Shown: in pieces, positions 20,425 through 34,462 of the stretch
Position numbering within the stretch: position 1 is the first letter of the stretch
How the letters are laid out: each line of letters starts with the position of its first letter
IMG/VR virus record: IMGVR_UViG_3300020215_000103
Coordinates: 1 to 35,719 of that record
DNA length: 35,719 nt
Direction: 5' to 3' (one strand)
Source: a virus
Program-made: the position numbers and the translations under genes
Notes under the pieces: model-generated
The model's input: the letters and a program-made list of their open reading frames with translations, nothing else
The model's database searches: none
Told to the model about the DNA's origin: nothing

Positions 20425-20428
20425 GGGC

Positions 20429-20440
20429 TTTCTCTACTCC
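20429..20440 (+). promoter_or_regulatory. Repeated intergenic motif TTTCTCTACTCC, copy 1
   Basis: Exact 12-bp copy of the motif also found on the - strand at 23132-23143 and 28885-28896, and with one change at 34444-34455. It starts 5 bases after a stop codon and points in the direction of transcription. Promoter, processing or termination signal. Confidence 0.55.
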
Positions 20441-20663
20441 CTCCCGTCTGTCATTTTTCCTTTTGCGAGCGGTGGGCACGGGGACCCACGGCGGATGTCT
20501 GGCTAGTGGTGTGCACGCTGCGGCCTAGCCTCCCTTGAGCACCGGGATGACCGGAGAGTTGAAGCCGTCTTTGATCCACTCGCATAGCTGGTCTGCACCT
20601 GGAGCGTCTGGTTATGCCAGGCGTGATGAAGGGTGCGGGCCAGTGAAACTGCATTACGAAGGC

Positions 20664-20692
20664 ATACGATCGTATCGGCGGATAATACGATC
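20664..20692 (+). promoter_or_regulatory. ATACGATC inverted/direct half-sites, probable operator
   Basis: Three ATACGATC-type half-sites: a perfect 12-bp palindrome followed 9 bases later by another half-site. They lie about 107 bases before the gene at 20799. A different sequence from the ACTTAC operators, so a second regulator would be needed. Confidence 0.5.
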
Positions 20693-20798
20693 TATCCAAA
20701 AATGGTTGATATGTGTCGGAAATGAATAAAGCGGCACTTTGGTTTATCAGGATAATTTAAAGCGGCGCTGAACCGTCCCCCTCCTTGGAGAAGAAAGA

Positions 20799-21041
20799 AT
20801 GAGCCAATGCGACGACTGCTACCGATATCGGCGGACGATGGGCGGTGACGTGAAGTGTGATCGCCACGAGCTGGAAGACGTGAAAGCCGAGTACGCCCTG
20901 ATGCTTGCGGACGCTCTGGACTACATGGCCGAGATGGTGACGGCTCAGCCTTTGAGGCGCCAGGAACTAGCCGATGCGTTCTATGACAACTGGGTCAACG
21001 CCCAACCGTCCCCCGGGGAGCAGGAGAAAGAGAAACCATGA
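20799..21041 (+). CDS. Small protein with Cys-rich N-terminus
   Basis: 80 aa with GGAGAAGAAAGA just before the ATG. It opens SQCDDCYRYRRTMGGDVKCD, with CxxC and a third Cys near residue 20, then a helical body (ALMLADALDYMAEMVTAQPL) and a charged tail. A zinc-binding element is possible, but only three Cys are visible. It overlaps the next gene by 4 bases (ATGA). Function unknown. Confidence 0.62.
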   Translation: MSQCDDCYRYRRTMGGDVKCDRHELEDVKAEYALMLADALDYMAEMVTAQPLRRQELADAFYDNWVNAQPSPGEQEKEKP

Positions 21042-21277
21042 AGCTCGTCAAGCCCTGCACGTACTGCGGCGAAGACCGGAGCATCAAGGAGCTGTTCACG
21101 GGCGATGAGGGCCTGTGCTGGATGTGCGAAGAGTGGACCGTGAAGTGCGATCACTGCGGCAAGCGGTTCCAGCCAGGCGAGTACTATGACCGCATGTGGT
21201 GCAGTCGCAAGTGCGTGAAGGCGGCAGGACTGGACCCGGCAATAACGTTCCGGGTCGGCGACGACACGCCAGCTTAA
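21038..21277 (+). CDS. Zinc-ribbon/treble-clef-like small protein
   Basis: 79 aa with several CxxC pairs: CTYC (residues 7-10), CWMC (about 27-30), CDHC (37-40) and a later WCSRKC. The spacing suggests two zinc sites. Such small proteins are common in phage early operons and often bind nucleic acids or host proteins, but no specific partner is evident. Translation is coupled to the upstream gene by an ATGA overlap. Confidence 0.65.
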   Translation: MKLVKPCTYCGEDRSIKELFTGDEGLCWMCEEWTVKCDHCGKRFQPGEYYDRMWCSRKCVKAAGLDPAITFRVGDDTPA

Positions 21278-21310
21278 CAGAACATTACTTCCCGGACGCT
21301 GGGAGCGAAT

Positions 21311-21688
21311 ATGGAAGAGTTTAAGGGCTTCAAAATTCATAGCTGCAAAAATATCCCAGACGATGGGAATTTTTGGACCCAGCCGCCAGGACTCAAGCAT
21401 TGCCAGTACTGCGGTGAGAAGTTGAGAGAAGACCCCATGACCACACGGCAGGAGATGGCAAGGGCCATCCTCGATTCCCACTTCAGAAGCTACGGGATGA
21501 CGTATGAGCTGAGGCTAGTGGATGAGATCACCGCAGCACTCGACCGCGCCTATGCCGACGGGCTTGAGGCTGCGGCGAAGGTGGCGGATGAAATCGCCAA
21601 GAAGTGGGAGATCGACATGGGCGACAGGTATGTCGCATCGGCCAACGAAGCTGCCGTCAAGATCCGCGCACTCAAGGATGCAAAATAG
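21311..21688 (+). CDS. Hypothetical protein with zinc-knuckle-like N-terminus and helical C-terminus
   Basis: 125 aa; GGGAGCG precedes the ATG. Residues ~12-34 hold one Cys and then CQYCGEKL, a CxxC motif. The remainder is helical with an Ala-rich stretch (YADGLEAAAKVADEIAKKWE), of the kind seen in many phage proteins with an 'EITxALDRAYxDGLEAAA' helix. It is the last gene of the rightward cluster and ends 3 bases before the CCA end of the - strand tRNA gene, so the two units converge here. Confidence 0.65.
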   Translation: MEEFKGFKIHSCKNIPDDGNFWTQPPGLKHCQYCGEKLREDPMTTRQEMARAILDSHFRSYGMTYELRLVDEITAALDRAYADGLEAAAKVADEIAKKWEIDMGDRYVASANEAAVKIRALKDAK

Positions 21689-21691
21689 AGT

Positions 21692-21765
21692 TGGTGGCTC
21701 GGGGTGGTAACGCTCCACCGTCTATGGGTTATGAATCCATTGCTCTGCTTTTGAGCTACCGAGCC
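21692..21765 (-). tRNA. tRNA-Met-type (anticodon CAU), atypical D- and T-loops
   Basis: 74 bases read on the - strand and a full cloverleaf: acceptor GGCTCGG/CCGAGCC (7 bp), TA at 8-9, D-stem GCTC/GAGC, anticodon arm ATGGA-TTCATAA-CCCAT (one A-C mismatch at the loop end), 4-base variable loop, T-stem GGTGG/CCACC, then discriminator A and an encoded CCA. The anticodon CAU is at 21733-21731 after the invariant U33. G1-C72 pairs, so it is an elongator Met type, or an Ile2 type if the C is modified to lysidine. Oddities: the D-loop AAAAGCA lacks the GG pair, and the T-loop AGCGTTA lacks T54-T55. It lies next to the integrase. Confidence 0.8.
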
Positions 21766-21811
21766 GTATCAGCGTTTTAGGGCCTACCGGCCCCGCCCGT
21801 CAAGGGCTGCC

Positions 21812-22861
21812 TCATTCTTCTTCGTCCTCGGGCCGCCACACATCATCCCCAAAATCCCGGTGATCCTGAGCATAGCGCATGGTGGTGGCCAGGTTCTCAT
21901 GCCCAACAGCCAGCTGCACTTCGCGTGCGGAATAATCCCTCAGCGCCCGCGTGATGAACGTGGCCCGAAGGTCATGCAGGTGAAAACCCGTTTCAAGTTT
22001 GCCCCATTCATCAGCCAAGGTGTCGGGGCTCATCGGCACAAGCTGCCGGATGAGGGAATGGGCAGCCTTCGGCGTGCTGTACCAATAAGGGGTCTTTCTG
22101 TTCTTCTTTCCCTTGAGGATGGTGGGCTTGCCCATTTTCAGATTCTGCCGAGCAACTTTCAGGTAGTCTTTTCGCACGTCTTCAAGCGTGAGCCCCAGGG
22201 CCTCGGAGCGCCGAAGGCCAAAGAGGTAACAGAGACTCACCGCGGCCTTGATGTTCTTAGGTAGCCGCTTTTCAATCTCCTCCCACTCCTCTGGCCTCAC
22301 AAACCTCTCCCGCCCCTTCTTCAGCGCCCGCGTGGCAGACAATGAACGGAAGCGAGCGCGAGAAATGGGGCGAAACCGAATGGCTGCCACCTCGCCTGGG
22401 CGCTTATCGGCCAGGAATTCCATGAAGCGGTTAGCCTCTTGCACCACCTTGCGGATGGTGGAAGGGGAGAGGCGTTGCTCAAGCAGGAAGGCTGCCCACT
22501 TGGATTTGTGGACCGCATACCATTGACGGGGATCGGCCAAGCCCAGCTTGCCGATGAAGAAGTTGAGGAAATAGGTGAGCAGGTAGTTGTACTGACAGAG
22601 GGCGTTTTTCTCGCTGGGCACCTGGGCCAACAGCTGCTCGCGGTATTCTTCAAGCAGCACTGGGCTGATGAAAGCGTGCTTGAAGGCCACTGCCTCGCGG
22701 GCGAGCACCGGGGCGTTGAGCCTGTGCACCAGCGCCTTCAGCTCACCCTCATTGTCGCGGATATGGGCATATTGCTTCATAGGCAGGCGCTTGTAGCGCC
22801 CGGCCTCCCAGCGCCGTATCACCCACCGCTGCTTTTCCTGGAATAAACACCACTTCTGCAT
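21812..22861 (-). CDS. int: Tyrosine recombinase / integrase 1
   Basis: 349 aa. The C-terminal catalytic domain has the complete set: Arg217 in FGLRRSEALGL, Lys256 in the RKTPYW hairpin, His296 and Arg299 in HLHDLRATF, His321 in VGHENLATT and Tyr330 in MRYAQ. An N-terminal arm-type and core-binding region precedes it (residues 1-180). It should integrate and, with an excision factor, excise the phage genome. The tRNA gene beside its 3' end is a possible attachment locus. The ATG has no Shine-Dalgarno; a -10-like GATACA ends 8 bases before it, so the mRNA may be nearly leaderless. Confidence 0.93.
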   Translation of the reverse strand: MQKWCLFQEKQRWVIRRWEAGRYKRLPMKQYAHIRDNEGELKALVHRLNAPVLAREAVAFKHAFISPVLLEEYREQLLAQVPSEKNALCQYNYLLTYFLNFFIGKLGLADPRQWYAVHKSKWAAFLLEQRLSPSTIRKVVQEANRFMEFLADKRPGEVAAIRFRPISRARFRSLSATRALKKGRERFVRPEEWEEIEKRLPKNIKAAVSLCYLFGLRRSEALGLTLEDVRKDYLKVARQNLKMGKPTILKGKKNRKTPYWYSTPKAAHSLIRQLVPMSPDTLADEWGKLETGFHLHDLRATFITRALRDYSAREVQLAVGHENLATTMRYAQDHRDFGDDVWRPEDEEE

Positions 22862-22894
22862 GAGTTAGTTGTATCACTTTTACGTGGTTTAGAC

Positions 22895-22910
22895 TAACCA
22901 TTAGTGGTTA
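22895..22910 (-). promoter_or_regulatory. Dyad TAACCA-N4-TGGTTA before integrase gene
   Basis: Perfect 6-bp inverted repeat with a 4-base spacer, 34 bases upstream of the integrase ATG and overlapping any -35 region of its promoter. Likely operator or arm-type recombinase site. Confidence 0.5.
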
Positions 22911-23131
22911 TGCTGTCTTGAGTGATTTCAATGGGTTAGCTGATTATTTTCAGCTTATGAATCCGCCGCTTAACCGCGGCGTGCACGTAGGAATGGCGTT
23001 GGAGTGAAAAGAGAAACCTCCTGGTCAGCCCCCCGGACCATTCCGGGAAGCCGCCAGGCAGGAAGTTGTTGCTCTTCAGATTTAAAAAACTGCGAGTTGC
23101 AGCCTTACAGACAGGTAATACCTGCTGGGCT

Positions 23132-23148
23132 GGAGTAGAGAAAATTTA
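23132..23148 (-). promoter_or_regulatory. Repeated intergenic motif, copy 2 (17-bp match)
   Basis: On the - strand it reads TAAATTTTCTCTACTCC, identical over 17 bases to 28885-28901. It lies 13 bases after a stop codon, at the head of the integrase leader region. Confidence 0.6.
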
Positions 23149-23161
23149 AGTGGAGGGGGAA

Positions 23162-23362
23162 TTAGGTAGAAAGCTTGAGGGCAGAGAAAGCGACGGCATC
23201 CTGTTGCTTGCGGAGGGCGTCAGCTGCGGGCTTGAGGTACCTGTAGAAAGCCCGCCGCTCGGGCTCCCGCTGAAGGATGTCCTCAACCACCTCATCGAGC
23301 AAATCAGCCGGGATGTTGGGAACCAAGGAAAGCACCTCAATCGCAATCTCTTGGCTGGTCAT
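23162..23362 (-). CDS. Small hypothetical protein
   Basis: 66 aa; the ATG overlaps the upstream stop by 4 bases (ATGA). It is helical and acidic in the first half (IAIEVLSLVPNIPADLLDEV), then basic (REPERRAFYRYLKPAADALR). Not recognised. It is the last gene of the coupled right-arm operon before the integrase control region. Confidence 0.58.
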   Translation of the reverse strand: MTSQEIAIEVLSLVPNIPADLLDEVVEDILQREPERRAFYRYLKPAADALRKQQDAVAFSALKLST

Positions 23363-23586
23363 ACTTCTTCCTCGCCGATCAATCGCAGCTGTTCACCCAT
23401 GGGGGTGAACCATGCACCATCCCGTTCAATACCGCTTATCTGGCTTGCTGCCATCTCACGCGCCTTCTCAAAGCCCGCCAAATAAGCAGCGGCGAGAGGG
23501 ATTTCAACCCACAAGCCTTCTTTCTTGCCCATGTCCTCGAAGTGCTGAACAAACTCCAGGGCAAGCCTTTCTTTGAGCTTCATCAT
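23359..23586 (-). CDS. Small hypothetical protein
   Basis: 75 aa with GAGGAAGAA before the ATG; overlaps both neighbours by ATGA junctions. It contains LALEFVQHFEDMGKKEGLWVE and AAYLAGFEKAREMAASQI, a pattern seen in many phage 'sleeping beauty'-type small proteins with an AAxxAGF-ExAR helix. No catalytic residues are visible, and function is unknown. Confidence 0.6.
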   Translation of the reverse strand: MMKLKERLALEFVQHFEDMGKKEGLWVEIPLAAAYLAGFEKAREMAASQISGIERDGAWFTPMGEQLRLIGEEEV

Positions 23587-23870
23587 TTCTTCCTCAGGAA
23601 GCCATTGAACTTGAGAAACTGATACGTGATGCGCTCCAGCTTGTAAACCTGGGCATGGGTGAGCCCAAGCTTGTGCTCAACATCCAGGGCATGAATGATT
23701 TCATGGATGAAGCTCTTGAGCGTGGCCACTTCGCTTTGGCCCTTCTTAATCGCAATTTGCTGCGAGTAGAAGCGGCACTCAGCCAACGTATTAGGGTCCT
23801 CGAATTTGTCCACCCAAGCCAGCTCATAGAAGGTTTTGGCCTTGATCCAGTAGCGGTGCAGATAGTTCAT
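23583..23870 (-). CDS. Putative small zinc metallopeptidase (HEIIH)
   Basis: 95 aa. The segment KSFIHEIIHALDVEHKLGLT contains HExxH (residues 56-60), the zincin signature, and His66 or a residue in LTHAQVYKLE could be the third ligand. At this length it is a minimal domain, shorter than SprT or ImmA/IrrE families, and resembles small phage HExxH proteins that sit in early operons. It may cut a repressor or host protein, but no target is visible. It is coupled by ATGA overlaps to the HNH gene upstream and the small gene downstream. Confidence 0.65.
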   Translation of the reverse strand: MNYLHRYWIKAKTFYELAWVDKFEDPNTLAECRFYSQQIAIKKGQSEVATLKSFIHEIIHALDVEHKLGLTHAQVYKLERITYQFLKFNGFLRKK

Positions 23871-24199
23871 GCGGCCAGCCCCCTCCGGGCAAAGCCGCGA
23901 AGCACGGCCCCCACCACCAACATTTCATCAACGGATAACTCTTTGCCCCGGATGAAGTTGCAGCGCCCACAGCATGGCAGCACGTTATCCAGGGTGTAGC
24001 CGCGGCGGTTGTCCACGCGGTCCAGTCCGCTGCCGGTGCGGGGGGATGCGCTTTCACAGTAATGACAGGGGCGCTGAGCGAGGGCCTCAAACTCTTCCCA
24101 CGTGATGGTCCATTCCAAGCCGCGGTCCATAGCCCCGCGCACACTCTTACGGAATCGCCGCTCAAGCGTCTCCTCATAGCGGCGGATGCGCTCGCTCAT
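23867..24199 (-). CDS. HNH-type endonuclease 1
   Basis: 110 aa. The sequence carries the treble-clef HNH pattern found in phage nucleases: PCHYC (Cys45, Cys48), GLDRVDNRRGYTLDNVLPCC (Asp60, Arg61, Asp63, Asn72, Cys76) and GRCNFIRGKE (Cys80, Asn81). The usual His of the first motif is replaced by the LDR type common in this subgroup. Possible roles are homing, packaging-site nicking or recombination. The protein is encoded inside a coupled operon rather than free-standing, which argues against a recent homing insertion. Confidence 0.8.
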   Translation of the reverse strand: MSERIRRYEETLERRFRKSVRGAMDRGLEWTITWEEFEALAQRPCHYCESASPRTGSGLDRVDNRRGYTLDNVLPCCGRCNFIRGKELSVDEMLVVGAVLRGFARRGLAA

Positions 24200-24537
24200 G
24201 CGGCCTTCCTGCGTTCCTGATTCTCGCTTTGGGTCTTAAGCTTATGGCAGGGCTTGCACAGCACGGCGAGCCCCGTGGCGCTACAGAAGAGCCGCTCAAT
24301 GTAGCTGTCCCAGCTCACCCAACCGGAGGTTGGAACCACTGGATTGATGTGATCCACCTGCACCAGGGTGCGGGGGAAAGCCCCGCCGCACTCTTCACAG
24401 AAGAACTGGCCATAAGGGGCGCGCATGCGCTTGAGGGCTTCGGTCTTTGACGGCATGTAGCGTGAGGCTTTGCGGAGGGCCGCAATGACGGCACTCTTGG
24501 CATTCCACACCCGCTTTGAGCGTTTCTTCTTAGCCAC
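24196..24537 (-). CDS. HNH-type endonuclease 2
   Basis: 113 aa; GTG start with GAGGGG 9 bases upstream. A basic N-terminus (KKKRSKRVW) precedes FCEECGG (Cys47, Cys50), VQVDHINPVVP (Asp62-His63) and AVLCKPCHKLKT (Cys94, Cys97, His98). This is the canonical zinc-stapled HNH arrangement. It differs in sequence from the HNH gene downstream and overlaps it by 4 bases, so the pair is not a fresh duplication. It may work in DNA recombination or degradation, and its specificity is unknown. Confidence 0.82.
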   Translation of the reverse strand: MAKKKRSKRVWNAKSAVIAALRKASRYMPSKTEALKRMRAPYGQFFCEECGGAFPRTLVQVDHINPVVPTSGWVSWDSYIERLFCSATGLAVLCKPCHKLKTQSENQERRKAA

Positions 24538-24540
24538 GCT

Positions 24541-24795
24541 TCAGTGCCCCTCAGGCTGACTGCAGTTGGCTGCCGTGAGGGCAATTGCCTGTCCGTAGGC
24601 CACAGCCTTCTCAGCAGAGAGGCCATCCACTAGCGCCTCATAGAGAATCTCAAACGTCTCTTCGCGGTTGATGTGAGGATTCACTCCCCAGAGCAGCAAC
24701 GTGAACACCTCGGCCGCACGCAGGTGCATGGTGTCCACCGGTGGGGGCATTGTTGCAGCGGGGGCGGCCGGGGCTTTGCGTTTCTTAGCTGCCAC
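24541..24795 (-). CDS. Small hypothetical protein
   Basis: 84 aa from a GTG at 24795 that overlaps the upstream small frame by 11 bases. A Lys/Ala/Pro-rich N-terminus (AAKKRKAPAAPAATMPPP) is followed by a helical domain (EVFTLLLWGVNPHINREETF, EILYEALVDGLSAEKAVAYG). The GTG lacks a strong ribosome site, so coupling or the internal ATG near residue 16 is possible. Function is unknown. Confidence 0.52.
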   Translation of the reverse strand: MAAKKRKAPAAPAATMPPPVDTMHLRAAEVFTLLLWGVNPHINREETFEILYEALVDGLSAEKAVAYGQAIALTAANCSQPEGH

Positions 24796-24916
24796 CGGGC
24801 ACCCGCTTTTTAGTGAATTTCGGGTGGAATTCGCGGAGAAACTCCTCACGGAAGTCTTCCACCTCTTCAGGCCGCGGTGGGGGGCTGCTGCTCCACTTGC
24901 GCTTCAGCGCCTTCAT
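24785..24916 (-). CDS. Possible 43-aa protein overlapping GroES-like gene end
   Basis: A short frame whose ATG (24916) lies 50 bases inside the GroES-like gene. The product is charged and Pro-rich (KRKWSSSPPPRPEEVEDFRE, then EFLREFHPKFTKKR). The frame extends upstream to an ATG at 25015, but that part is shadowed by the GroES-like gene and is Ser/Lys low complexity. There is no clear ribosome site. Its stop overlaps the next start, which is the main support. Confidence 0.4.
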   Translation of the reverse strand: MKALKRKWSSSPPPRPEEVEDFREEFLREFHPKFTKKRVPGGS

Positions 24917-25367
24917 TGAGGCTTCGGAAGGTAGTTCGGTATCCTTCTTCCCCTTTGAATCGGATTTGGATTTCCGAATCTCGCGTGAGGCCGATGGTGT
25001 CCGCCTGGTAGCCATTAAGATCCCCGAAGGTGCTAAACCACTTCACGGACACTTGGCTAACCAGCGCGATGTCACCCGGTTGAGCGTTGAGAGGGGACGG
25101 CTCGCCCGTGTCATCGTTGTAGTAGCCCTCGCCAACGGCCAGCACCCGCACCCAATGCGGTCTGTCCTGGGCGAAGGTGCCCAGCTGATTTTTCACGTCG
25201 ATGCCGATAATGATACCAGAGGCCGTTTTCTTCTCGGCCTCCTTGATGCGCTCAACCAGAATGGCATCACCAATGATTTCGATGCCCTGGCGGTTGAGGT
25301 TTTTAAATCGCTCCAGGTAGGCGCTCTTAGGCAGCGCCTCGGGTGCCGTCGTCGTCGTTTCCGTCAT
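24867..25367 (-). CDS. Phage GroES/Cpn10-like co-chaperonin
   Basis: 166 aa from ATG 25367, chosen for AAGGAGG 8 bases upstream. Residues 33-55 (GDAILVERIKEAEKKTASGI, then IIG) match the first strand and GroEL-binding mobile loop of GroES, whose hydrophobic tripeptide here is Ile-Ile-Ile. VRVLAVGEGYYNDDTGE (73-89) and LNAQPGDIALVSQ (93-105) match the GroES VxAVGxG and xGDxVLF segments. N- and C-terminal extensions make it longer than the ~97 aa of bacterial GroES, as in T4 gp31. It probably caps host GroEL while folding a phage protein such as the capsid subunit. Its start overlaps the integrase 2 gene by 41 bases. Confidence 0.75.
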   Translation of the reverse strand: MTETTTTAPEALPKSAYLERFKNLNRQGIEIIGDAILVERIKEAEKKTASGIIIGIDVKNQLGTFAQDRPHWVRVLAVGEGYYNDDTGEPSPLNAQPGDIALVSQVSVKWFSTFGDLNGYQADTIGLTRDSEIQIRFKGEEGYRTTFRSLNEGAEAQVEQQPPTAA

Positions 25368-26115
25368 GGTCGCTTCCTCCTTGAAGCAGCTGGCGCACCT
25401 GAGCTTCCAGCTCAGCATCACGCCGGGGTTGCACGTAATACTTGGCCGTGTTGATGTCATCCCAGCCAAACACCTTGCAGAGATCGAATTCATTGAGGCC
25501 GCCTTCGGCGAGCCGCGTGGCTGCCAGGGCGCGGAGGTTGTGGGGGGTGAGGCCCGTGGCCGCCTTCAGCGCGCGGCGGAAGCTGTCATAACTCTTCTCC
25601 ATCGCCGGGCCTTCCACTGCGGGCACAAACACCGTGCGCTGCTTGTCGCCTTTGCCATGCACCTGGTTACCCTCGCGGGTGACAAACTCGGTGTAACGGG
25701 CGCCACTTCCGAGCAGCTCCAGTGCCAGCTTGCGGAAACCGGGGTTGGCCATCTGCTCGATGCGAGCCTTGGCCTCATCAAAGGCGGTGCCAATTCTTTT
25801 CCGCTTATAGACCACCTTCTGGTCAAAGAGCCGGGCGTTGTCTTCGATGTAGCGGCTGTAGCGGTTGGGGCCATTGATGTAACCGCGGTCCACGCACCAG
25901 CTCCAGAAGCTTGCCACGCGGCGGAAGGCTTGGGCCCGGGTGTAGGGCTTCATGGTTTGCTCCAGGTGCACCCACAGGGCTTCAGGGTTGCCGGTCACGT
26001 GAGGTGCCAGCGCCAGGAGCCTCTTGCTTTCTGAGCGCATCGTGGAGGGTGCCCAGCTGTTCACTTTGCTTTGGAGATACTTATTCATCAACTCTGTAAC
26101 TTGCAGTTTTGCCAT
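25327..26115 (-). CDS. Tyrosine recombinase 2 (XerC/D-like, small)
   Basis: 262 aa from ATG 26115. Catalytic residues are present: Arg140 in GSGARYTEFVT, Lys155 in VHGKGDKQRTVFVP, His192 and Arg195 in TPHNLRALAATRLAEGG, Trp218 (FGWDD) where integrase 1 has His, and Tyr226/227 in NTAKYYV. The Trp variant is active in some family members. It is not closely similar to integrase 1. Possible roles are resolving genome multimers, an invertible switch or a second integration system. There is no Shine-Dalgarno; the promoter at 26122-26149 places the start of transcription at the ATG. Confidence 0.85.
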   Translation of the reverse strand: MAKLQVTELMNKYLQSKVNSWAPSTMRSESKRLLALAPHVTGNPEALWVHLEQTMKPYTRAQAFRRVASFWSWCVDRGYINGPNRYSRYIEDNARLFDQKVVYKRKRIGTAFDEAKARIEQMANPGFRKLALELLGSGARYTEFVTREGNQVHGKGDKQRTVFVPAVEGPAMEKSYDSFRRALKAATGLTPHNLRALAATRLAEGGLNEFDLCKVFGWDDINTAKYYVQPRRDAELEAQVRQLLQGGSDHDGNDDDGTRGAA

Positions 26116-26149
26116 ATGTACATAATACATCGGCAACCATTGGAGTCAA
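26115..26149 (-). promoter_or_regulatory. Promoter of recombinase 2 (leaderless) with palindrome
   Basis: TTGACT (26149-26144), a 16-base spacer and TATTAT (26127-26122) make a good sigma70-like promoter. Six bases after the -10 comes the ATG, so the mRNA would start at or next to it. The palindrome TATGTACATA (26115-26124) covers the -10 edge and start codon, a possible operator. Confidence 0.6.
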
Positions 26150-26156
26150 CTTTAAT

Positions 26157-26453
26157 CTATTGCGCCTGGTCAAGCTTGGCTTGGCGGATGATGTAGTCCA
26201 GGGTTTGCTGAATGGTTACGAGGGCTTGGCTGTGGGCGACCTGAGCCTCTCGCACCTCGTTTAGAGCAACACCATGCTGGCCTAGGGCCCCTGCGAATGC
26301 ATCTAAGGTACCTGCAGAGATGACATGCTGCGGCTCAGGTAGCTTCTCCTCGCCTAAGGTGTTGATGGTTGCCCTAGTGAAGAGATGTATCTGCCCTGCG
26401 ATGTAGGCAAACACGGCGAGATGGCCGAAGGCCAACACGTAGGCGAGTGTCAT
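26157..26453 (-). CDS. Small membrane protein with coiled-coil tail
   Basis: 98 aa. N-terminal hydrophobic helix (TLAYVLAFGHLAVFAYIAGQ) followed by a soluble part and a C-terminal helix (QVAHSQALVTIQQTLDYIIR). Not recognised. It overlaps the upstream gene by 4 bases (ATGA), and the promoter of recombinase 2 begins just past its stop. Membrane topology suggests a host envelope or superinfection role, but that is only a guess. Confidence 0.6.
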   Translation of the reverse strand: MTLAYVLAFGHLAVFAYIAGQIHLFTRATINTLGEEKLPEPQHVISAGTLDAFAGALGQHGVALNEVREAQVAHSQALVTIQQTLDYIIRQAKLDQAQ

Positions 26454-26806: not shown

Positions 26807-26809
26807 GGG

Positions 26810-27154: not shown

Positions 27155-27345
27155 TCTTTTTCTCCTTCGATTAAGTGAGCAAGGACTTGCTCCACAGTTT
27201 CTGAAACAGGGATGAGCGCGCCGCCGGTGCCGAGCACCAAGGTCGCCTTATGGGTGTCGCTCCACCAGTGGGCGAAATAGGTGCGCACGCTGATGTGCAC
27301 AGGCTCTTTGAAATTGGCATGAGTGAGGGTCATGATGCCTTTCAT
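27151..27345 (-). CDS. Small hypothetical protein
   Basis: 64 aa; GGAGG about 10 bases before the ATG at 27345, which overlaps the upstream stop (ATGA). Beta-rich (EPVHISVRTYFAHWWSDTHK, TLVLGTGGALIPVSETVEQV). An internal ATG 12 bases later is possible. Not recognised. It overlaps the next gene by 4 bases. Confidence 0.58.
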   Translation of the reverse strand: MKGIMTLTHANFKEPVHISVRTYFAHWWSDTHKATLVLGTGGALIPVSETVEQVLAHLIEGEKE

Positions 27346-27683
27346 CGGAGTTTGGCCTCCACCTTGGCGCGCACGGCCTTGAGCAGCTGCTCTTTCTCGC
27401 GTGCCTGTTCCAAGTAGGCGCCATACGTCTGAGGCTCGCCGCGGCTTTCGTATTCCTTAATCACCTTTTCCATGGCCAGCTCGCCCACAGATGCGATGCT
27501 CTGAATGGCGCGAAGTTCGTTGCGGTCCAGGTCCACCCAAAGGGCGTTGGCCCGCATTTTTGTGCAAAGGGCTTTCAGCAGCCGCTTCACTCGCTCATCG
27601 CCTGCCTTGCCACGCTTTTGGGCAAGCTTGGCCAAGTTCTTCTCCATCCACTCCAGTTCTTCTTTCTTAAATTGGATTTTCAC
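27342..27683 (-). CDS. Helical hypothetical protein
   Basis: 113 aa, GTG start with AGGAG 6 bases upstream and overlapping the nuclease gene's stop (GTGA). A highly charged helical protein (EELEWMEKNLAKLAQKRGKA, KVIKEYESRGEPQTYGAYLE) with a probable coiled coil. It follows the Cas4-like nuclease directly and may act with it, but no motif supports that. Confidence 0.6.
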   Translation of the reverse strand: MKIQFKKEELEWMEKNLAKLAQKRGKAGDERVKRLLKALCTKMRANALWVDLDRNELRAIQSIASVGELAMEKVIKEYESRGEPQTYGAYLEQAREKEQLLKAVRAKVEAKLR

Positions 27684-28861
27684 GCTTTGCTCCTACGCAG
27701 CTCATAGTGGGCACCGCCCGTCTTGAGGTATTTGGCCTCATACACACGCCCTGCGGCGGTGCGAATTTTCGGCAACTTGTGAGTGACCAGAATTTCCGTG
27801 ATGGCGGCCTCCACCTTCTCCTTGCGCTTCTCTTCAGAGGCAAGTGCCTCCCAGGTGGTAATCAGCTCTTCCAGGCGCTGGCCCGTTTGGCCGAGCTTGT
27901 GGGTGTCTTTGGGCCACTGCTTCGGCGGAAGGTTGGTGAGCCACGCACGGCGTGCATCCTCACCGCCCCAGCACTCCTGGGAGAAGGGACAGAAGGCGCA
28001 CCGCATGGAGCCCAACATGGCCTCACGGGGCACATCTTCGGGCTTCTTTGCGTCCACACACTTGCTGATGAGGTTGAACTTCTCTTGCACGCGCTTTGCG
28101 AGCGCGGGCGATGGGCGGAACCTCAGTTCATAGTGGCGGCTGTCATTTTTGTTATATTTATAGATTGCTGCATGATCGACGCCGCGAGCTTGAAGGAACT
28201 CACTGCAAGCGTACAGGTTAAGCTGATATAGATTATCGGAAAGAAAAGCGTCACCCGATTCATTCAGGAATGCCTCCAGGTTGTCAGCGTACCAGCAGGT
28301 ATCTGAAACCTTAGTTAGTGTTTTCATTTGATCGAACTTGGCCAGGGTTTCATCCCAGCGCGTGGCATAGAACGCGGAAAAGCCGTCCTTTTGGCTCTTC
28401 ACGTCCATCACGCATTTGTAATCTTTTGAGACCAGCACCACGTCACAGCTGCCCTCGATCAGTTCGCGCTCACTGTCGGGGTCCAGGCGCTCAAGCTTAA
28501 AGAACGTGAGCACCTGCTGCTTGTAGCGGGGTTGCACAATCTTCAGCAGCTCGAAATTTCGCAGCACGCTGTACTCAACGCTGTGGCCAAGCTCCAAGAG
28601 GCGGTAGACGTGCGGCTCCTTTGGCTCCTGCGGAAAATGCGCATGCCCGCGGTAGCTCATCAGGTCGTAGGCGAGCCTACGTGCACAGTAGCCCGCAGCA
28701 CTTGGGCGAAGGGGGAAGAACTTGTGGCGACCTTCCGCCTTGGCTTCTTCCTCGCGTTTCAGCTTCTCCCTGATTTCGTGGTCCAGGAGATCGGTGTAGC
28801 CAACGGGTGGGCCGAGAATCGTGGGCACTTCCGTGTTTTGGGTCATGGGCATCTTGCTCAT
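27680..28861 (-). CDS. Cas4/RecB-like PD-(D/E)XK nuclease with Fe-S cysteines
   Basis: 393 aa. Nuclease motifs: RPSAAGYCARRLAYDL (Cys59), IEGSCDVVLV (Asp140), CVMDVKSQ (Asp153, Lys155) and YQLNLYA (Gln213-x3-Tyr217). Three further Cys sit at 288, 291 and 297 (MRCAFCPFSQEC), so with Cys59 they form the one-plus-three arrangement that holds a 4Fe-4S cluster in Cas4 and AddB. It is expected to be a DNA exonuclease for recombination or host DNA breakdown, comparable in role to T7 gp6. No cas genes or CRISPR array lie nearby, so 'Cas4-like' refers to the fold only. A repeated promoter-like motif ends 24 bases before the ATG. Confidence 0.85.
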   Translation of the reverse strand: MSKMPMTQNTEVPTILGPPVGYTDLLDHEIREKLKREEEAKAEGRHKFFPLRPSAAGYCARRLAYDLMSYRGHAHFPQEPKEPHVYRLLELGHSVEYSVLRNFELLKIVQPRYKQQVLTFFKLERLDPDSERELIEGSCDVVLVSKDYKCVMDVKSQKDGFSAFYATRWDETLAKFDQMKTLTKVSDTCWYADNLEAFLNESGDAFLSDNLYQLNLYACSEFLQARGVDHAAIYKYNKNDSRHYELRFRPSPALAKRVQEKFNLISKCVDAKKPEDVPREAMLGSMRCAFCPFSQECWGGEDARRAWLTNLPPKQWPKDTHKLGQTGQRLEELITTWEALASEEKRKEKVEAAITEILVTHKLPKIRTAAGRVYEAKYLKTGGAHYELRRSKA

Positions 28862-28884
28862 GTGCTCACCTTCTCAGCTCACCC

Positions 28885-28901
28885 GGAGTAGAGAAAATTT
28901 A
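28885..28901 (-). promoter_or_regulatory. Repeated intergenic motif, copy 3 (17-bp match)
   Basis: Reads TAAATTTTCTCTACTCC on the - strand and begins 1 base after the stop of the DUF1599-like gene. It is 24 bases upstream of the nuclease ATG, where a promoter or processing site would be expected. Confidence 0.6.
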
Positions 28902-28902
28902 T

Positions 28903-29280
28903 TTAATAATGATCCGACGAAAAGGAGGCGCTTCGGTTTGGCTTAGCAGCCAGGTCCGCAAGCTCTTCCTGACGCTTGGCCTGCAGGTAGCCCGCGAAAA
29001 GGTCACAGTAGTTGGCCAGGTCCTGGAGCGTATCCATCACGCTTTCGTCCTTCACCTGGAGTGTCCCGTTTTTGACGAATGAGCCAAGCCGCGCCAGCTT
29101 GTCAGTCATGCGGGTGAGGAAGCCTTGCTCAGCCGAGCAGGCCCCAATCACTTCCACTGCTTTGAAGTTGGCGAAGGGGTCCTGGCTGCCGCCGGTGTAG
29201 TCGGCGTTCTTCGCCCGGGCGATGGCCAGGCGCTTCTCAAACTGTTCCTTCTGAAACGCGAAGAATTCTTCCTTAGTCAT
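28903..29280 (-). CDS. DUF1599 / nucleotide-modification-associated protein (MazG-like)
   Basis: 125 aa from ATG 29280, chosen for AAGGAG 7 bases upstream. It has the family pattern: KNADYTGGSQDPFANFK (25-40), TRMTDKLARL (57-65) and VKDESVMDTLQDLANYCDLF (77-95), where the Asp/Glu residues are the likely metal ligands of an all-alpha pyrophosphohydrolase-like fold. Members are frequent in phages and are thought to act on nucleotide pools or base modification. Its neighbour is the DNA nuclease gene, in line with a role in DNA metabolism. Confidence 0.8.
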   Translation of the reverse strand: MTKEEFFAFQKEQFEKRLAIARAKNADYTGGSQDPFANFKAVEVIGACSAEQGFLTRMTDKLARLGSFVKNGTLQVKDESVMDTLQDLANYCDLFAGYLQAKRQEELADLAAKPNRSASFSSDHY

Positions 29281-29410
29281 TTGTCTTCTCCTTTTGACAA
29301 AACCCGCACAGCGGGCACTTGAGCCACTCATGCAGCTCCGGGTGTGGACGCAGCAGGGCCACGTGACACTCGGGGCAAATCTTCAACTTGATGGCGGTGA
29401 GGCGACTCAA
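29273..29410 (-). CDS. 45-aa zinc-ribbon protein
   Basis: A short gene starting at TTG 29410, which overlaps the SGNH gene's stop (TTGA), with GAGG 7 bases upstream. The product contains KICPECHVALLRP and KCPLCGFCQKEK, that is two CxxC pairs about 20 residues apart, a typical zinc ribbon. It overlaps the following ATG by 8 bases and carries that gene's AAGGAG ribosome site. Start codon choice is uncertain; another TTG lies 24 bases further in. Confidence 0.6.
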   Translation of the reverse strand: MSRLTAIKLKICPECHVALLRPHPELHEWLKCPLCGFCQKEKTND

Positions 29411-30717
29411 GCGAGCGCCTCGGCCACTCCGGCAGCCAGTTCATCGGCAAGCAGGGCGCTGCCTGCGTCCTTCAGGTGCGTTTGATCGGTTTCGTAATAG
29501 GTGGTGTTGGTTTCAGCGCCGGGAGCGCCAATGCTCGCAATGGCCGCGGGGTCCGCCAGGCCATCAGCAAAAGTTGTGTAATTGCTCCTGAGCCATGTGT
29601 TGAATGCCACGCGGTCGGCTTCAAAGCTCTGGTTGTTACCTGCCACCACACGGCGGGGGAGGAGTGTAGTCACCACCACTTTCCAGCCCGCCGTCTGCCT
29701 GGCCGTGCAATAGGATTGCAGGGTGGTTTGGATTGTGCTTCGCACGGCCCCGCTTGCAATGAGTGAGTTGGTGCCTTCCACCACCACCAGCACGTTGTCT
29801 CTGCCCTCGCGCAAGAGGGCATCCGTCGCCTGGGCGTTAGATGCAATGTGCTCAGTGGTGCGCCCCACGTAGGAGCGCATGACGATGGTGCTTGGATCTA
29901 TGGAAAGGAGCCGAGCCAGCTCACACACGGGCGGCGTGTCCTTATCGTTTGAGGCCACCACCAGGCTGTTGCCCTCAATCACGATGTTGTAGAGGGATGA
30001 GGGTGAGGACGTGCCCCAATCGGTGGAGATGCGGCGCATGGCGCTTTTAAATTCCGCATCACTGAGTACCCGGCTCCACAGCCAAAGGGCTCCTAGACGG
30101 ATGTCACCAGGGTTTGAGGCACCACCGCGGGCACAAAGCTGCATCGTGGTGAGCGGGTAGCTGGCAGTCTGCCCGGTGCCAGCGAACATGGGGCGGATGG
30201 GCTCACGGTTGATGGCAGCTGTCGTGGTGCCTGCAGCCGAGCGTACACCGTAGGTGACGGCGCGGAATTTTGGAATGCCGTAGGCAGAGAAGTCATCCCC
30301 AAGAGCCCCCATGCGAAGGTTGGAAGCGAAGCCCAGCACGCGAAGCGTGTTGGTTTTATCACACAGGATTCCGTTGTAATTGTTGTCATGCTTGCTGAAC
30401 ACGGCGATGGCCGTGCAGGCGTTCGCGTCAACTGAGGAGAAGGGGACAACACTTTCCAGGTATTGGCCTAGCGCCTTACTGAAATAGATGCCGCCGCGGC
30501 CAGAAAAAAGCGTGCTGTCATAGCTGGGGTTGCGGCTCACGCCTGCCGCGGAAGTGGCGAAGTGGTGGCCGTTACCCGACATGTCGCGCATCTCATCCAC
30601 CCGTGCGCCAGTGAGTGTGAGACTATCCACACGGCGCGCATTGAGATGGCAAACCAGCCCCGTGGACGGGATGCGTCCGCGGGGCTGGCTGATGTGGATG
30701 GAGGAGTCGAAATTCAT
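29407..30717 (-). CDS. LamG-like plus SGNH/GDSL hydrolase
   Basis: 436 aa. Residues 1-230 form a LamG-type jelly roll (GLVCHLNARRVDSLT, DMSGNGHHF, LGALWLWSRVLSDAEFKSAM). Residues 240-436 form an SGNH hydrolase: block I VIEGNSLVV (Ser251, with Asn where GDS is usual), Gly285 in VGRTT, block III VEGTNSL (Asn317) and block V DQTHLKDAG (Asp411, His414). It probably removes acetyl or other ester groups from a surface glycan after binding it. It is odd that it is read leftward among replication genes, far from the virion operon. There is no signal peptide. Coupled to the FmdB-type gene by ATGA. Confidence 0.75.
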   Translation of the reverse strand: MNFDSSIHISQPRGRIPSTGLVCHLNARRVDSLTLTGARVDEMRDMSGNGHHFATSAAGVSRNPSYDSTLFSGRGGIYFSKALGQYLESVVPFSSVDANACTAIAVFSKHDNNYNGILCDKTNTLRVLGFASNLRMGALGDDFSAYGIPKFRAVTYGVRSAAGTTTAAINREPIRPMFAGTGQTASYPLTTMQLCARGGASNPGDIRLGALWLWSRVLSDAEFKSAMRRISTDWGTSSPSSLYNIVIEGNSLVVASNDKDTPPVCELARLLSIDPSTIVMRSYVGRTTEHIASNAQATDALLREGRDNVLVVVEGTNSLIASGAVRSTIQTTLQSYCTARQTAGWKVVVTTLLPRRVVAGNNQSFEADRVAFNTWLRSNYTTFADGLADPAAIASIGAPGAETNTTYYETDQTHLKDAGSALLADELAAGVAEALA

Positions 30718-30923
30718 TTCTTTCTTCCTGCAAAGGCCCCCGCGCTCTTAGGCCGGGTGCTGGCCCCGTTCTTCCCATGGATGGTGTAGCCCGCAAAGCT
30801 GAGGAGCTTTTGCATGGGGCTGCCACACTCCTCGCACGTCACCTGGGTATCGGATGCCACGTTGGCTTCCACCTGCTGCTCGCAGCTGGGATTGAGGCAC
30901 TTGAAATCAAAGATGGGGCACAT
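30714..30923 (-). CDS. FmdB-type zinc-ribbon protein
   Basis: 69 aa. The start MCPIFDFKCLNPSCEQQVEA and VTCEECGSPMQKLLSFAGYT fit the FmdB family: an aromatic-x-C-x4-C knuckle, then CxxCG-x2-M, a hydrophobic stretch and a basic C-terminal tail. Such proteins bind zinc and are annotated as regulators in bacteria; phages often carry them. Translation is coupled on both sides (TAATG and ATGA). Confidence 0.75.
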   Translation of the reverse strand: MCPIFDFKCLNPSCEQQVEANVASDTQVTCEECGSPMQKLLSFAGYTIHGKNGASTRPKSAGAFAGRKK

Positions 30924-31183
30924 TAGGCGGCCTCCTTTTCTTCCATGTAACGCTCGCCCAGCTCATACTCAGTGTTTTGGGTGATGGCGCGCTTGTAATC
31001 TGGGTCCACATGCACCAGCTGCGTGGTGCACACCCAAGTGCCGTCGGGCCGCTCTGGGTGGTTGAACACCTGGCCGATGAGGCGGTGAGTGGAGGGAGCA
31101 ATCTCCCAGTGCTCAAGCCGCGCCTTGGCCTTCACCTTTTTGACGTATTGGGGAAACAGTTCCAGCTGCTCTTCCTTTTCCAT
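30923..31183 (-). CDS. Small hypothetical phage protein
   Basis: 86 aa, AAGGAG 7 bases before the ATG. Contains RLIGQVFNHPERPDGTWVCT and TQLVHVDPDYKRAITQNTEY, a short beta-rich domain frequently seen in phage genomes but of unknown function as far as I know. It overlaps the next gene by one base. Confidence 0.65.
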   Translation of the reverse strand: MEKEEQLELFPQYVKKVKAKARLEHWEIAPSTHRLIGQVFNHPERPDGTWVCTTQLVHVDPDYKRAITQNTEYELGERYMEEKEAA

Positions 31184-31193
31184 GCTCTGCTCC

Positions 31194-31469
31194 TTAGGCT
31201 GCTTTCAGCAGCGTCTCTTCAATGAGAAATGGCTTGAAGCCCTCTTCCCTGAGCTGTCCAAGCCTCTTCCACACCAGCGCGCCCGTCCGTGCGTGCTGGA
31301 ACACATAAGCGTCTTTGGCCATGCCGACATAATGGAACACCTCAAAGCGCGAAGGCGCGTTGGCGTCTTCCCACTGAGCCCACACCCGGCAACCAAACAA
31401 GGAGTTGCCCTTCACCATGTGACGACGCTCCCAAGCATCATCAGGGCAGCCATACTGAGGCAAAACCAA
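31194..31469 (-). CDS. Small hypothetical protein after polymerase
   Basis: 91 aa if it starts at TTG 31469 (AGGAG 13 bases upstream). An ATG at 31418 with GGGAG 9 bases before it is an alternative start giving 74 aa. Beta-rich (SLFGCRVWAQWEDANAPSRF, EVFHYVGMAKDAYVFQHART). Not recognised. It lies 28 bases after the polymerase stop. Confidence 0.55.
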   Translation of the reverse strand: MVLPQYGCPDDAWERRHMVKGNSLFGCRVWAQWEDANAPSRFEVFHYVGMAKDAYVFQHARTGALVWKRLGQLREEGFKPFLIEETLLKAA

Positions 31470-31497
31470 ACGGCCAGCCGCTCCTGCGGCGACAGTC

Positions 31498-33417
31498 TCA
31501 CTTTTCCCACACTGTGCTCACTTTCCCCTCCACCGCCAGCGGGATGAGCCCGTAGGGTGTCGGCAGTTTGTAATCCGTCATCACGCGGGTGAGGATGCTT
31601 ACACAATCATCCGCACATCCCGCGGGCACTTCAGCCACAATGGCGTCGTGTTCAAGCAGCAGCACATGAGCGTCCGTGCCGCGGGCGTCCCACTCCTTTT
31701 GCGCCTTGTTCGCGGCATCGAGCACCAAATCCGAGGCACTGCCTTGCACCAGGGTGTTGAGGCCCGTCATGTGGATGTCAGCAGGCTTGATGGAAAACAT
31801 CCGGCCCATGATGTTGGTGTACGGCCCCCTGAGGAGGGCCTTCTTCAACAGCTCGCGGAACGCGAACACATCCGAATAATAGGCTTGGAAACGTGACAAA
31901 CGCCCCTTCACCTCTTCATCGCTCCACTTAAAGCCACGCTTCATGCCGCTCTGCTTGAGGATGTCCTGGCCCGCGCCGTACATGATGGCCAATCCCACCT
32001 CTTTGCCCACCTCACGGTGAAGCGGGTGAGCCTTCTTAATGTCGGCTGCCTTCACACCCTCAAGCTCCGGGAAGAAGGCAAGAGTGGTGTGGGCGTGGAA
32101 GTCCTCGCCGCTAATCAGGATGCGGCACAGGTTGTGGTCTTGAGACAGGTAGGCCAGAATGCGTGGCTCAATGGCGCTTTCATCGTAGGTGAGGAGCGTG
32201 TAGCCGGGGCGCGCGGTGAAAAGCTTTTTGAGTGAGCCGGGCACTTGCTGAAGGTTGGGGCTGCTTGAACTGAGGCGGCCCGTGCGTGCGCCGGTTGCGT
32301 TGAAGGTACAGTGGATGACGCCGTCCACGGCCTTCTCCCGGTAGGACGGAAAGAACGCGCTCACCAACTTCTTTTGCTTGCGGTATTCCAGGAAGGTGCG
32401 GATGTCCTCGCGCTCCTCAGCCAGGCGCTTGAGCACGGGTTTGCCGGTGCTTTCCTCTTCATCAAAGCCTACGATGTTGAGGCCCAAGTGCTCCTTAAGC
32501 AGCCACTTGAGTTGAGCCGGGCTATCCAAGTTGAAGGGCTCAAGCCGCTCCATGGCCTTAGCTGCCAAGTGCCGATAGCGCGCATCAATGCGGTCAATCT
32601 TCTCAGGCGTCTTCTCTTTCAGCTTCTCCACCGCGGCCAGGGCCTTCACCTGATAGGCTTCATCCAGCTCCATCTGCTGCTTGAAACGGTAGGCGGCGAA
32701 GGCCGGGGCCCAAAGGGCGTCGAGCTGTTCTTTGGTGGAGGCCGCGATCCGTGCAGCCTCTCTTTCAGCGCCTTCCATGGCTTCAAAATCGAGCCGTACC
32801 CCACGCAGCTCCATGCGAAGCAGCAGCTTGGTCCAGGGCAGGAGCTTGTCCATGTAGAAACTGAAGCTGCCCTCATTCCACGCCATGTCAGCCAGCTTGA
32901 AGTGGAGCCGGTAGGTGTACTCGGCATCCTTCAACACGTAGCTTTCGCTCGCGTGGTTGGTGGGATCTTCCCAAAAGGGCTCAACACCCAAAAAGTAGGG
33001 GGCCAGGGTTTTCAGGCTGTGGCCTTTGGCCTCGCGGTGCGTGGAGCCCCGCGGCAGCAGCTTGTTGCGCGCCTTGCGCTCTTCCTCATACTTGGCAAGC
33101 CAGGCGTCAGGAATTTTGTGCGTGCAGGTGGCAGCCAGCAGCTGCGTGTCGCCCACCCAGCGAGCCACCGGCACGTGCACGCCGTGGGTGGCTAGCTGCC
33201 GGAGGTCCCACTTCAGGTTGTGGCCAATGAAAGTGGCATCAGGATGAAAAGCAAGAAAATCATCAAACTCACCCAAATCGGTGAAAGTGACAGCATCGTC
33301 GGGGCTCCATAGTCCAATGATGGTGATGCGGTTGTGATGGGGTGAAAGCGCGTGCTCACACTTGGTGGCGCATCCGCGGGCGCATGCCGTTTCGATGTCG
33401 AGCGCGTAAAGGCTCAT
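31498..33417 (-). CDS. polA: DNA polymerase A with 3'-5' exonuclease
   Basis: 639 aa, the short phage form without a 5' nuclease. Exonuclease: Asp7/Glu9 (ALDIET), Asn67 and Asp71 (IGHNLKWDL), Tyr160 and Asp164 (YVLKD). Polymerase: TGRLSSSSPNLQQVP (379-393), motif A LLTYDESAIEPRIL (Asp412), motif B Arg468, Lys472, Leu476, Tyr480-Gly481 (HREVGKEVGLAIMYG), and motif C LLLEHDAIVAEV (His590, Asp591, Ala592). Leu476 aligns with E. coli Phe762. In virioplankton PolA, Leu at this site has been linked with temperate phages, which fits the integrase here. Ala592 replaces the usual Glu of HDE. It should replicate phage DNA. The ribosome site is GAGGGGAAG. Confidence 0.93.
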   Translation of the reverse strand: MSLYALDIETACARGCATKCEHALSPHHNRITIIGLWSPDDAVTFTDLGEFDDFLAFHPDATFIGHNLKWDLRQLATHGVHVPVARWVGDTQLLAATCTHKIPDAWLAKYEEERKARNKLLPRGSTHREAKGHSLKTLAPYFLGVEPFWEDPTNHASESYVLKDAEYTYRLHFKLADMAWNEGSFSFYMDKLLPWTKLLLRMELRGVRLDFEAMEGAEREAARIAASTKEQLDALWAPAFAAYRFKQQMELDEAYQVKALAAVEKLKEKTPEKIDRIDARYRHLAAKAMERLEPFNLDSPAQLKWLLKEHLGLNIVGFDEEESTGKPVLKRLAEEREDIRTFLEYRKQKKLVSAFFPSYREKAVDGVIHCTFNATGARTGRLSSSSPNLQQVPGSLKKLFTARPGYTLLTYDESAIEPRILAYLSQDHNLCRILISGEDFHAHTTLAFFPELEGVKAADIKKAHPLHREVGKEVGLAIMYGAGQDILKQSGMKRGFKWSDEEVKGRLSRFQAYYSDVFAFRELLKKALLRGPYTNIMGRMFSIKPADIHMTGLNTLVQGSASDLVLDAANKAQKEWDARGTDAHVLLLEHDAIVAEVPAGCADDCVSILTRVMTDYKLPTPYGLIPLAVEGKVSTVWEK

Positions 33418-33535
33418 CGCTGTCTTCCCCTCTTTGTGAGGGAGAAAGTATCAGCGGCTGGCAGCTTTGCAAGCCTGTAACTTGCAGATTTACAATTTTT
33501 CTATTGCCGCCCCACGCTAGCGCGGTGCTCGCGCT
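33418..33535 (-). promoter_or_regulatory. Leader/control region of the polymerase gene
   Basis: 118 bases without a gene. The near-palindrome CTGCAAGTTACAG (33487-33475, - strand) also occurs at the start of recombinase 2 (26106-26094). Overlapping dyads TGCAAG/CTTGCA (33468-33473, 33481-33486) lie in the same place. A weak -35/-10 pair (TTGCAA, then GATACT) follows. Possible operator-controlled promoter. Confidence 0.42.
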
Positions 33536-33853
33536 CTATTCGCCGCGTCGAATGGCAGAAATGTAGGCGCGAAACTCATCGCGATCCTCGCGGAGCTTGG
33601 CGCTGCGGCCCGTGCTCTTGCGCTTGCAGTAGCGGAAAAGCTCAAAGGCGTATTCCTGGGGCATGAGGATGTCATTGTCAGCCTCGGCAAAGGGGAGGAA
33701 AAATTCCTCCCCCGTGCCGTTGTCCGCACACCAGGCGCCCTGGTTTGCGACATCAATCACGCACACGGGCCCCTTTGGGGCCGTGCCACATGAGGTGAGG
33801 CTAAAGGTCACTAAGAATGTCAGAAAGCATCTTTGCAGCAGCTTTTTTCTCAT
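33536..33853 (-). CDS. Lipoprotein (possible outer spanin)
   Basis: 105 aa with a signal peptide type II: MRKKLLQRCF, a hydrophobic core (LTFLVTFS) and the lipobox LTSC, cleaved before Cys22. The mature part is acidic and then basic at the end. An outer-membrane lipoprotein overlapping an upstream small gene by 53 bases in another frame is the arrangement of Rz1-like spanins. However, it is longer than Rz1, and the upstream protein is not a clear inner spanin. It could instead be a superinfection-exclusion (Cor- or Llp-like) lipoprotein. Confidence 0.65.
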   Translation of the reverse strand: MRKKLLQRCFLTFLVTFSLTSCGTAPKGPVCVIDVANQGAWCADNGTGEEFFLPFAEADNDILMPQEYAFELFRYCKRKSTGRSAKLREDRDEFRAYISAIRRGE

Positions 33854-33992
33854 TGGGAGTCTTCGCGTGATTGACGGCCTTTTGCACTTCGCCGAGCTTC
33901 TGGAACCACTTCTCCCCAGCGTTCTTCTTAAAAAACTGGAAGATGTCCTTCAGCATGAGGCAAAAGCTGATGAATTCTTTAATAAGACTCAT
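33801..33992 (-). CDS. Small basic helical protein
   Basis: 63 aa; the ATG follows the upstream stop directly, with no ribosome site of its own, so translation is coupled. N-terminal mildly hydrophobic amphipathic segment (LIKEFISFCLMLKDIFQFFK) and a basic helical remainder (KAVNHAKTPNEKKAAAKMLS). The first part might sit in or on a membrane. It overlaps the lipoprotein gene. A lysis-cluster role is suggested by neighbours only. Confidence 0.55.
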   Translation of the reverse strand: MSLIKEFISFCLMLKDIFQFFKKNAGEKWFQKLGEVQKAVNHAKTPNEKKAAAKMLSDILSDL

Positions 33993-34265
33993 TTACTTTT
34001 TAGCCGGGAGCTTGATGCTGAGAATGAAGTCGGCCAGGAACGCCACCAGCTTCAACGCTTTGCTGCCTTCAGCCTTTGCCAGAAGCATGTCGTCTTTCTC
34101 TGACTTGGTGAGCTTCACCACGACACCGAGCACCTCACGCAGTGGCTTCATCACCATGCGAGCTGAGCCGATGATCATCGCGAGAAGAGCCAGGGCCTGA
34201 GCCACAGCGCCGAATTGTCCAGCCAGGGCCTCAAGCGCGGCTTTTGCCAAAAGTTCCATATCCAT
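33993..34265 (-). CDS. Small membrane protein (holin-like candidate)
   Basis: 90 aa; AAGGAG about 8 bases upstream of the ATG. A hydrophobic segment (FGAVAQALALLAMIIGSARM) is followed by a second one (VLGVVVKLT) and later LVAFLADFILSIKLPAKK with a basic end. Small size, hydrophobic helices and a basic tail are holin-like features, and the two following genes include a lipoprotein. No endolysin is adjacent, so the call is tentative. Confidence 0.55.
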   Translation of the reverse strand: MDMELLAKAALEALAGQFGAVAQALALLAMIIGSARMVMKPLREVLGVVVKLTKSEKDDMLLAKAEGSKALKLVAFLADFILSIKLPAKK

Positions 34266-34330
34266 TTTGTTTTCTCCTTAAGGGCCCCGGGCATCGGGGC
34301 GCCCCGTATTTTAACAGGGCGCTGGGTGCG

Positions 34331-34369
34331 AAAAGGGCCGCCCCTGCCGTCCTTGGCGGGAAGCGGCCC
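34331..34369 (-). terminator. Intrinsic terminator
   Basis: On the - strand GGGCCGC pairs with GCGGCCC, with an inner stem CCCGCC / GGCAGGG, followed by TTTTC. It ends transcripts from the upstream gene cluster before the holin-like gene. Confidence 0.75.
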
Positions 34370-34443
34370 CGAAGAGAGGAGTAACAGAGAGTACATGCGC
34401 CCTGGATGCAGCAGGGACACACCCATTTTGTACAGCCGCCGAA

Positions 34444-34455
34444 GAAGTAGAGAAA
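34444..34455 (-). promoter_or_regulatory. Repeated intergenic motif, copy 4 (one mismatch)
   Basis: Reads TTTCTCTACTTC on the - strand and starts 7 bases after the upstream stop codon. A short hairpin AGCGG/CCGCT spans that stop and runs straight into the motif, as at copy 1. Confidence 0.5.
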
Positions 34456-34462
34456 GCGGCGC

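Follow-up and report, generated by a model that had tools for sequence, protein, structure and literature searches.

Nut/boxA antitermination sites combine a boxA core with a boxB hairpin and act by an N-like or an RNA-alone mechanism. Stoperators are asymmetric 13-bp sites, which lie mainly between genes, are oriented to transcription and number 24-34 in the phages L5 and Bxb1 (PMC3029335). A phage that lacks its own RNA polymerase has to rely on host enzymes to set the timing and the limits of its transcription, and a tag shared by gene ends would offer a handle on such control in the uncultured phage family treated here. The tag is a 12-mer, TTTCTCTACTCC, present in three exact copies and one copy with a single change.

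The phage and its genome

The 35,719 bases analysed (the window) make up an entire IMG/VR virus record, which is itself incomplete and probably a genome fragment. Its 5' end falls within a gene that relatives keep beside the portal gene and that is annotated as the large terminase in MW202601; a primase or helicase, found in all four relatives whose candidate genes were scanned, was not found in the window, which means that part of this genome is missing. The late genes (portal, capsid, tape measure) are encoded on the + strand and the replication genes (family A DNA polymerase, Cas4-like nuclease, two tyrosine-recombinase-like proteins) on the - strand. Based on the presence of an integrase (21812-22861) and an XRE-type repressor candidate (18598-18855), the phage is probably temperate. 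Two 17-bp dyads, ACTTACTTGCGGTAAGT and ACTTACCTGAAGTAAGT, are located at 18553-18569 and 19906-19922, one just before the XRE repressor gene and the other before ORF 19976-20158; they are likely to be the operators of this repressor.

A tRNA-Met (CAT) gene with encoded CCA (21692-21765, - strand) adjoins the integrase gene. The second tyrosine-recombinase-like protein (25327-26136, - strand) is distinct from the integrase, is kept in most relatives and occurs twice in one of them (G006), and a protein with a GroES-like (Cpn10) domain (24867-25493, - strand) is likewise kept in relatives. Regarding the host, no prophage near the window was found among 787 bacterial genomes of two phyla; a scan of genome contigs with the DNA polymerase gave distant PolA-like matches only. 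Scans of viral contigs with the integrase and with a lipase-like protein gave no matches, and the integrase had none among phages and plasmids either.

A 12-mer behind stop codons

All four copies are intergenic, lie in the sense orientation and follow a stop codon at a distance of 4-18 nt, exactly at the coordinates and in the arrangement of the original prediction. Copy 1 (20429-20440, + strand) is found 4 nt past the stop of ORF 20155-20424, where it opens a gap of 374 nt. Copy 2 (23132-23143, - strand), 18 nt past the stop of ORF 23162-23362, opens the 300-nt leader of the integrase gene. Copy 3 (28885-28896, - strand), 6 nt past the stop of ORF 28903-29331, lies in a 41-nt gap inside an operon, without leader or terminator and 23 nt ahead of the start of the Cas4-like nuclease ORF (27680-28861). 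Copy 4 (34444-34455, - strand), which reads TTTCTCTACTTC and carries the single change, is positioned 7 nt past the stop of ORF 34463-34885 and opens a gap of 197 nt. That three of the copies head gene-poor leaders had also been predicted, and the gaps in question turned out to be the three longest same-strand gaps found; the gap table has two longer entries, after 8776 and 25327, which were left out as artefacts caused by ORFs that overlap. The distance from the motif to the next start codon ranges from 23 to about 360 nt, and it is the upstream stop that the position of the site follows instead.

A search of the whole record yielded no further copy at up to one mismatch, so that the count of four in the original prediction is complete at this threshold; the next-best match (29280-29291, + strand) has two mismatches and does not follow a stop codon on its own strand. 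Copies 2 and 3 share the 17-mer TAAATTTTCTCTACTCC, as had been noted before, with TAAAT preceding the motif in both. Otherwise the flanks of the copies agree at only 1-8 of 20 positions, which is near chance, identity ends sharply at the 12-mer, and no conservation among the copies was seen downstream of it; this suggests that the sequence itself has been kept, rather than a copied block. Six of its twelve positions are T, and the non-T positions (C and A) are fixed. Among words of 8 to 10 bases, this is the only family in this genome which recurs at least three times downstream of stop codons.

The surroundings of the copies differ. Copy 1 directly follows a hairpin, AGCCC-CTGA-GGGCT (20416-20429, + strand), which holds the stop codon in its loop and whose final stem base is the first T of the motif, and copy 4 directly follows GCGG-TGAGCG-CCGC (34456-34469, - strand), again with the stop codon in the loop, both as originally described; no hairpin is located directly upstream of copies 2 and 3. 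On the 3' side of copy 2, before the integrase gene, lies a structured leader (22862-23131, - strand): the 300-nt gap that contains it (22862-23161) has a folding z of -4.8 in comparison to shuffled DNA. About 30-50 nt past the motif, this leader holds a terminator-like hairpin, AAGGCUGC-AACUC-GCAGUUUUUU, and an alternative fold, which uses the bases right after the motif, is predicted to compete with this hairpin and to exclude it. A second structured leader (34266-34443, - strand) follows copy 4, where the gap 34266-34462 folds with z = -3.0 against shuffles and a terminator-like hairpin ends in UUUUCG. The leader after copy 1 (z = -1.5) folds only slightly better than its shuffles and is not unusual. 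An Rfam search of the leaders returned the tRNA only.

Recurrence against chance

A chance expectation of 0.004 copies had been given for the motif; the figure is correct for a 12-mer named beforehand, but it is not a proper measure for one chosen after looking, since three different 12-mers reach three copies across the whole window (shuffles: mean 0.33, maximum 2), the others in coding DNA. Restricted to intergenic DNA, none of 3,000 dinucleotide shuffles contained any 12-mer in at least three regions or any 10-mer in at least four, and small variations in the gene set or the counting rule changed this to 1 in 100 shuffles for the 10-mer statistic and 1 in 200 for the 12-mer statistic counted by copies. 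The strength of the signal is thus owed to the restriction to intergenic DNA, and counts of repeated words generally need the correct null: the 12-mer is unremarkable genome-wide and clear between genes. On a simple positional model, the probability that every one of the four copies is in sense and no more than 18 nt past the preceding stop is about 1e-5, for a feature that was itself picked once the data had been seen. The recurrence in intergenic DNA is therefore not due to chance, as originally claimed.

It is rather unlikely that the copies are chance matches or remnants of a dispersed sequence without present function. Such an origin would suit a set of just four copies, chosen post hoc and absent from relatives, in a genome whose coding DNA also holds 12-mers at three copies. 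However, the intergenic shuffles and the consistent placement of the copies, in sense and beside stop codons, oppose it, and a mobile block would leave shared flanks, which are not seen here.

Relatives

The same layout, with proteins roughly 30-55% identical, is seen in six relatives, namely five IMG/VR records (G004-G008) and MW202601. Together with 27 IMG/VR records found via the capsid, these six, which had been found via the polymerase, the portal or the nuclease, make up the 33 relatives searched whole. The exact motif occurs in none of them (41-57% capsid identity where measured), and matches with one mismatch are few, either single or at control level. Conservation at syntenic sites had been proposed as a check; the motif is indeed absent from these 33 records, but at up to 57% capsid identity they are so distant that one would not expect a short control site to have persisted, and its absence from them says little about conservation at close range. 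G008 retains, at 65% identity, the gene that precedes copy 3, but its stop codon there runs directly into an ATG, leaving no gap. The product of this gene, a DUF1599-like protein (28903-29331, - strand), is far more similar in G008 than other shared proteins are, which suggests a recent exchange.

In viral contigs the 17-mer TAAATTTTCTCTACTCC gave three matches with one exact copy of the 12-mer per record, which is consistent with chance, and in the literature the exact 12-mer was encountered in one unrelated paper only. Another relative, G007 (IMGVR_UViG_3300045391_004734), carries a dispersed palindrome near GTATATTAATATAC in 7-8 intergenic regions, a number reached by none of 100 shuffles. 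It looks like a genome-wide operator set, and dispersed sites thus occur elsewhere in this phage family, with another sequence.

A proposed recognition site at transcription-unit ends

The reading we favour, tentatively and at somewhat less than even confidence, treats the 12-mer as a lineage-specific site of recognition that marks the downstream end of a transcription unit. Some factor of the phage or the host would recognise it as UUUCUCUACUCC in the nascent RNA, where translation has just stopped and ribosomes are absent, and would then decide the fate of transcription at the boundary, that is, stop, read-through of the structured leader or 3'-end processing; an RNA processing site, as also suggested originally, or another RNA-level site is possible within this class. 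Reading by sequence, reading in RNA and an effect on transcription are the inferred parts of this proposal. We consider RNA likelier than duplex DNA as the form in which the motif is read and put it first, because an element that has to be in ribosome-free RNA would naturally lie always in sense and near the stop codon, as the copies do even where the gap is long.

In its favour, each copy occupies a separate intergenic region, is in sense and stays next to the stop codon even in gaps of 197-374 nt, and the fixed non-T positions are not needed by a U-tract. The structured leaders predicted after copies 2 and 4, with their terminator-like hairpins, would likewise be expected at controlled boundaries. 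Against it stand the small number of sites (four, in an incomplete record), the absence of the motif from all 33 relatives, the position of copy 3 inside an operon without leader or terminator, and the ordinary folding after copy 1 (z = -1.5). It should also be noted that recognition in DNA by a binding protein acting in one orientation would look identical, and that the scanned proteins included no candidate for an antitermination or an RNA-binding protein. Still less certain, though worth considering, is the further step that the motif represents a previously undescribed sequence-specific control element, which would act in nascent RNA just after stop codons, set the ends of transcription units and be read by some protein or RNA, in a little-known uncultured phage family without a recognisable RNA polymerase of its own. 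Through the tag, a new factor of termination, antitermination or prophage silencing could come to light.

Alternative readings

Among the alternatives, the strongest competitor of recognition in RNA is a stoperator-like block of elongation by a DNA-bound protein, although we regard it as doubtful. Here the asymmetric site would be bound as DNA by the phage repressor, which would block the elongation of stray prophage transcription from positions between genes and in one orientation. The observed 12-bp asymmetric sites, intergenic and with a single orientation relative to transcription, have this arrangement, and the integrase and the XRE-type repressor make a temperate phage probable. However, there are only four sites at up to one mismatch in this incomplete record, as opposed to 24-34 in L5 and Bxb1, the sole repressor candidate (18598-18855) has nearby 17-bp dyads of its own (at 18553 and 19906), which are unlike the motif, and stoperators need not sit close to stop codons. 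A promoter element recognised by an RNA polymerase of the phage, or by a modified one of the host, had been among the suggestions of the original prediction; it would agree with the three copies that head long gaps before genes, and the core CTACTCC of the motif is also contained in the promoter of the phiKMV polymerase, CGACCCTTCCCTACTCCGGCCTTAAAT (PMC11475235). We nevertheless consider it unlikely, given that a PF00940 polymerase was found neither in the window (an incomplete record) nor in seven relatives (T7, as the control, was found at E=1e-109), that the full phiKMV consensus is absent, and that the sites follow the upstream stop, at 23 to about 360 nt from the next start and with no conserved start region downstream.

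Another suggestion, that the motif is the U-rich tail of intrinsic terminators, spread by the reuse of similar terminators, accounts for half of the set: copies 1 and 4, which both open with TTT, stand directly 3' of GC hairpins that enclose the stop codon. For copies 2 and 3, which have no hairpin directly upstream, it fails, a U-tract does not explain fixed C and A positions in a sequence with only six T in twelve, a consensus scan did not list the motif sites as terminators in the direction of the genes, and the region has no excess of terminator-like sites (20 versus 18.8 expected), so that we hold this explanation to be improbable. Least probable is a programmed single-strand nick site of the type that T5-, phiKMV- or tf-like phages have in their virion DNA; CTACTCC or TACT is common to the motif and to the phiKMV-like CGACxxxxxCCTA/CTCCGG or tf TACT/RTGMC consensus (PMC3517423), but so many motifs are known that a 7-base core shared with one of them proves little, neither the CGAC element nor the whole consensus is present, and known nicks fall on one strand only, whereas here one copy is on the + and three on the - strand. 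Three further candidates were rejected. A Rho rut site would require a C-rich, G-poor stretch around and downstream of the stop, for which copy 2 ranks in the top 0.3% of windows but the other three, at 17%, 45% and 45%, are unremarkable; origin iterons do not match the dispersed copies, whereas G004 and G006 show local clusters; and an inverted-repeat element would fit copies 1 and 2, whose 17-nt inverted arms enclose the integrase region, but not copies 3 and 4, which are found elsewhere, nor the unrelated flanks.

Comparison with known systems

Stoperators, nut sites and phiKMV-type sites serve here as analogies. Closest in layout are the stoperators of the Cluster A mycobacteriophages L5 and Bxb1 (PMC3029335, PMC6550527), which are likewise short, asymmetric, repeated, intergenic and of one orientation, and the phage described here also looks temperate. 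They differ in sequence (GGTGGMTGTCAAG in L5, GTTACGWDTCAAG in Bxb1), and the present motif has four sites tied to stop codons and no matching repressor identified. The phiKMV-like nick sites and polymerase promoter, CGACNNNNNCCTACTCCGG (PMC3517423, PMC4482731, PMC11475235), have the core CTACTCC in common with the motif, but here the CGAC element and the full consensus are absent, both strands are used and a T7-like polymerase gene was not found. PB1-like phages such as JG024 also possess repeated intergenic motifs of unassigned function and no RNA polymerase of their own; these motifs, AT-rich boxes and others, are likened to the 12-mer by description and not by sequence (PMC3008698). Like lambda nut/boxA, copies 2 and 4 would be elements of the sense RNA that come directly behind a gene and ahead of terminator-like hairpins. 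The motif matches the boxA core GCTCTTTAA at about 5 of 9 positions, a weak likeness seen by eye, and it differs from nut/boxA in that no constant boxB-like hairpin follows it and the scan of proteins gave none that is N- or Q-like.
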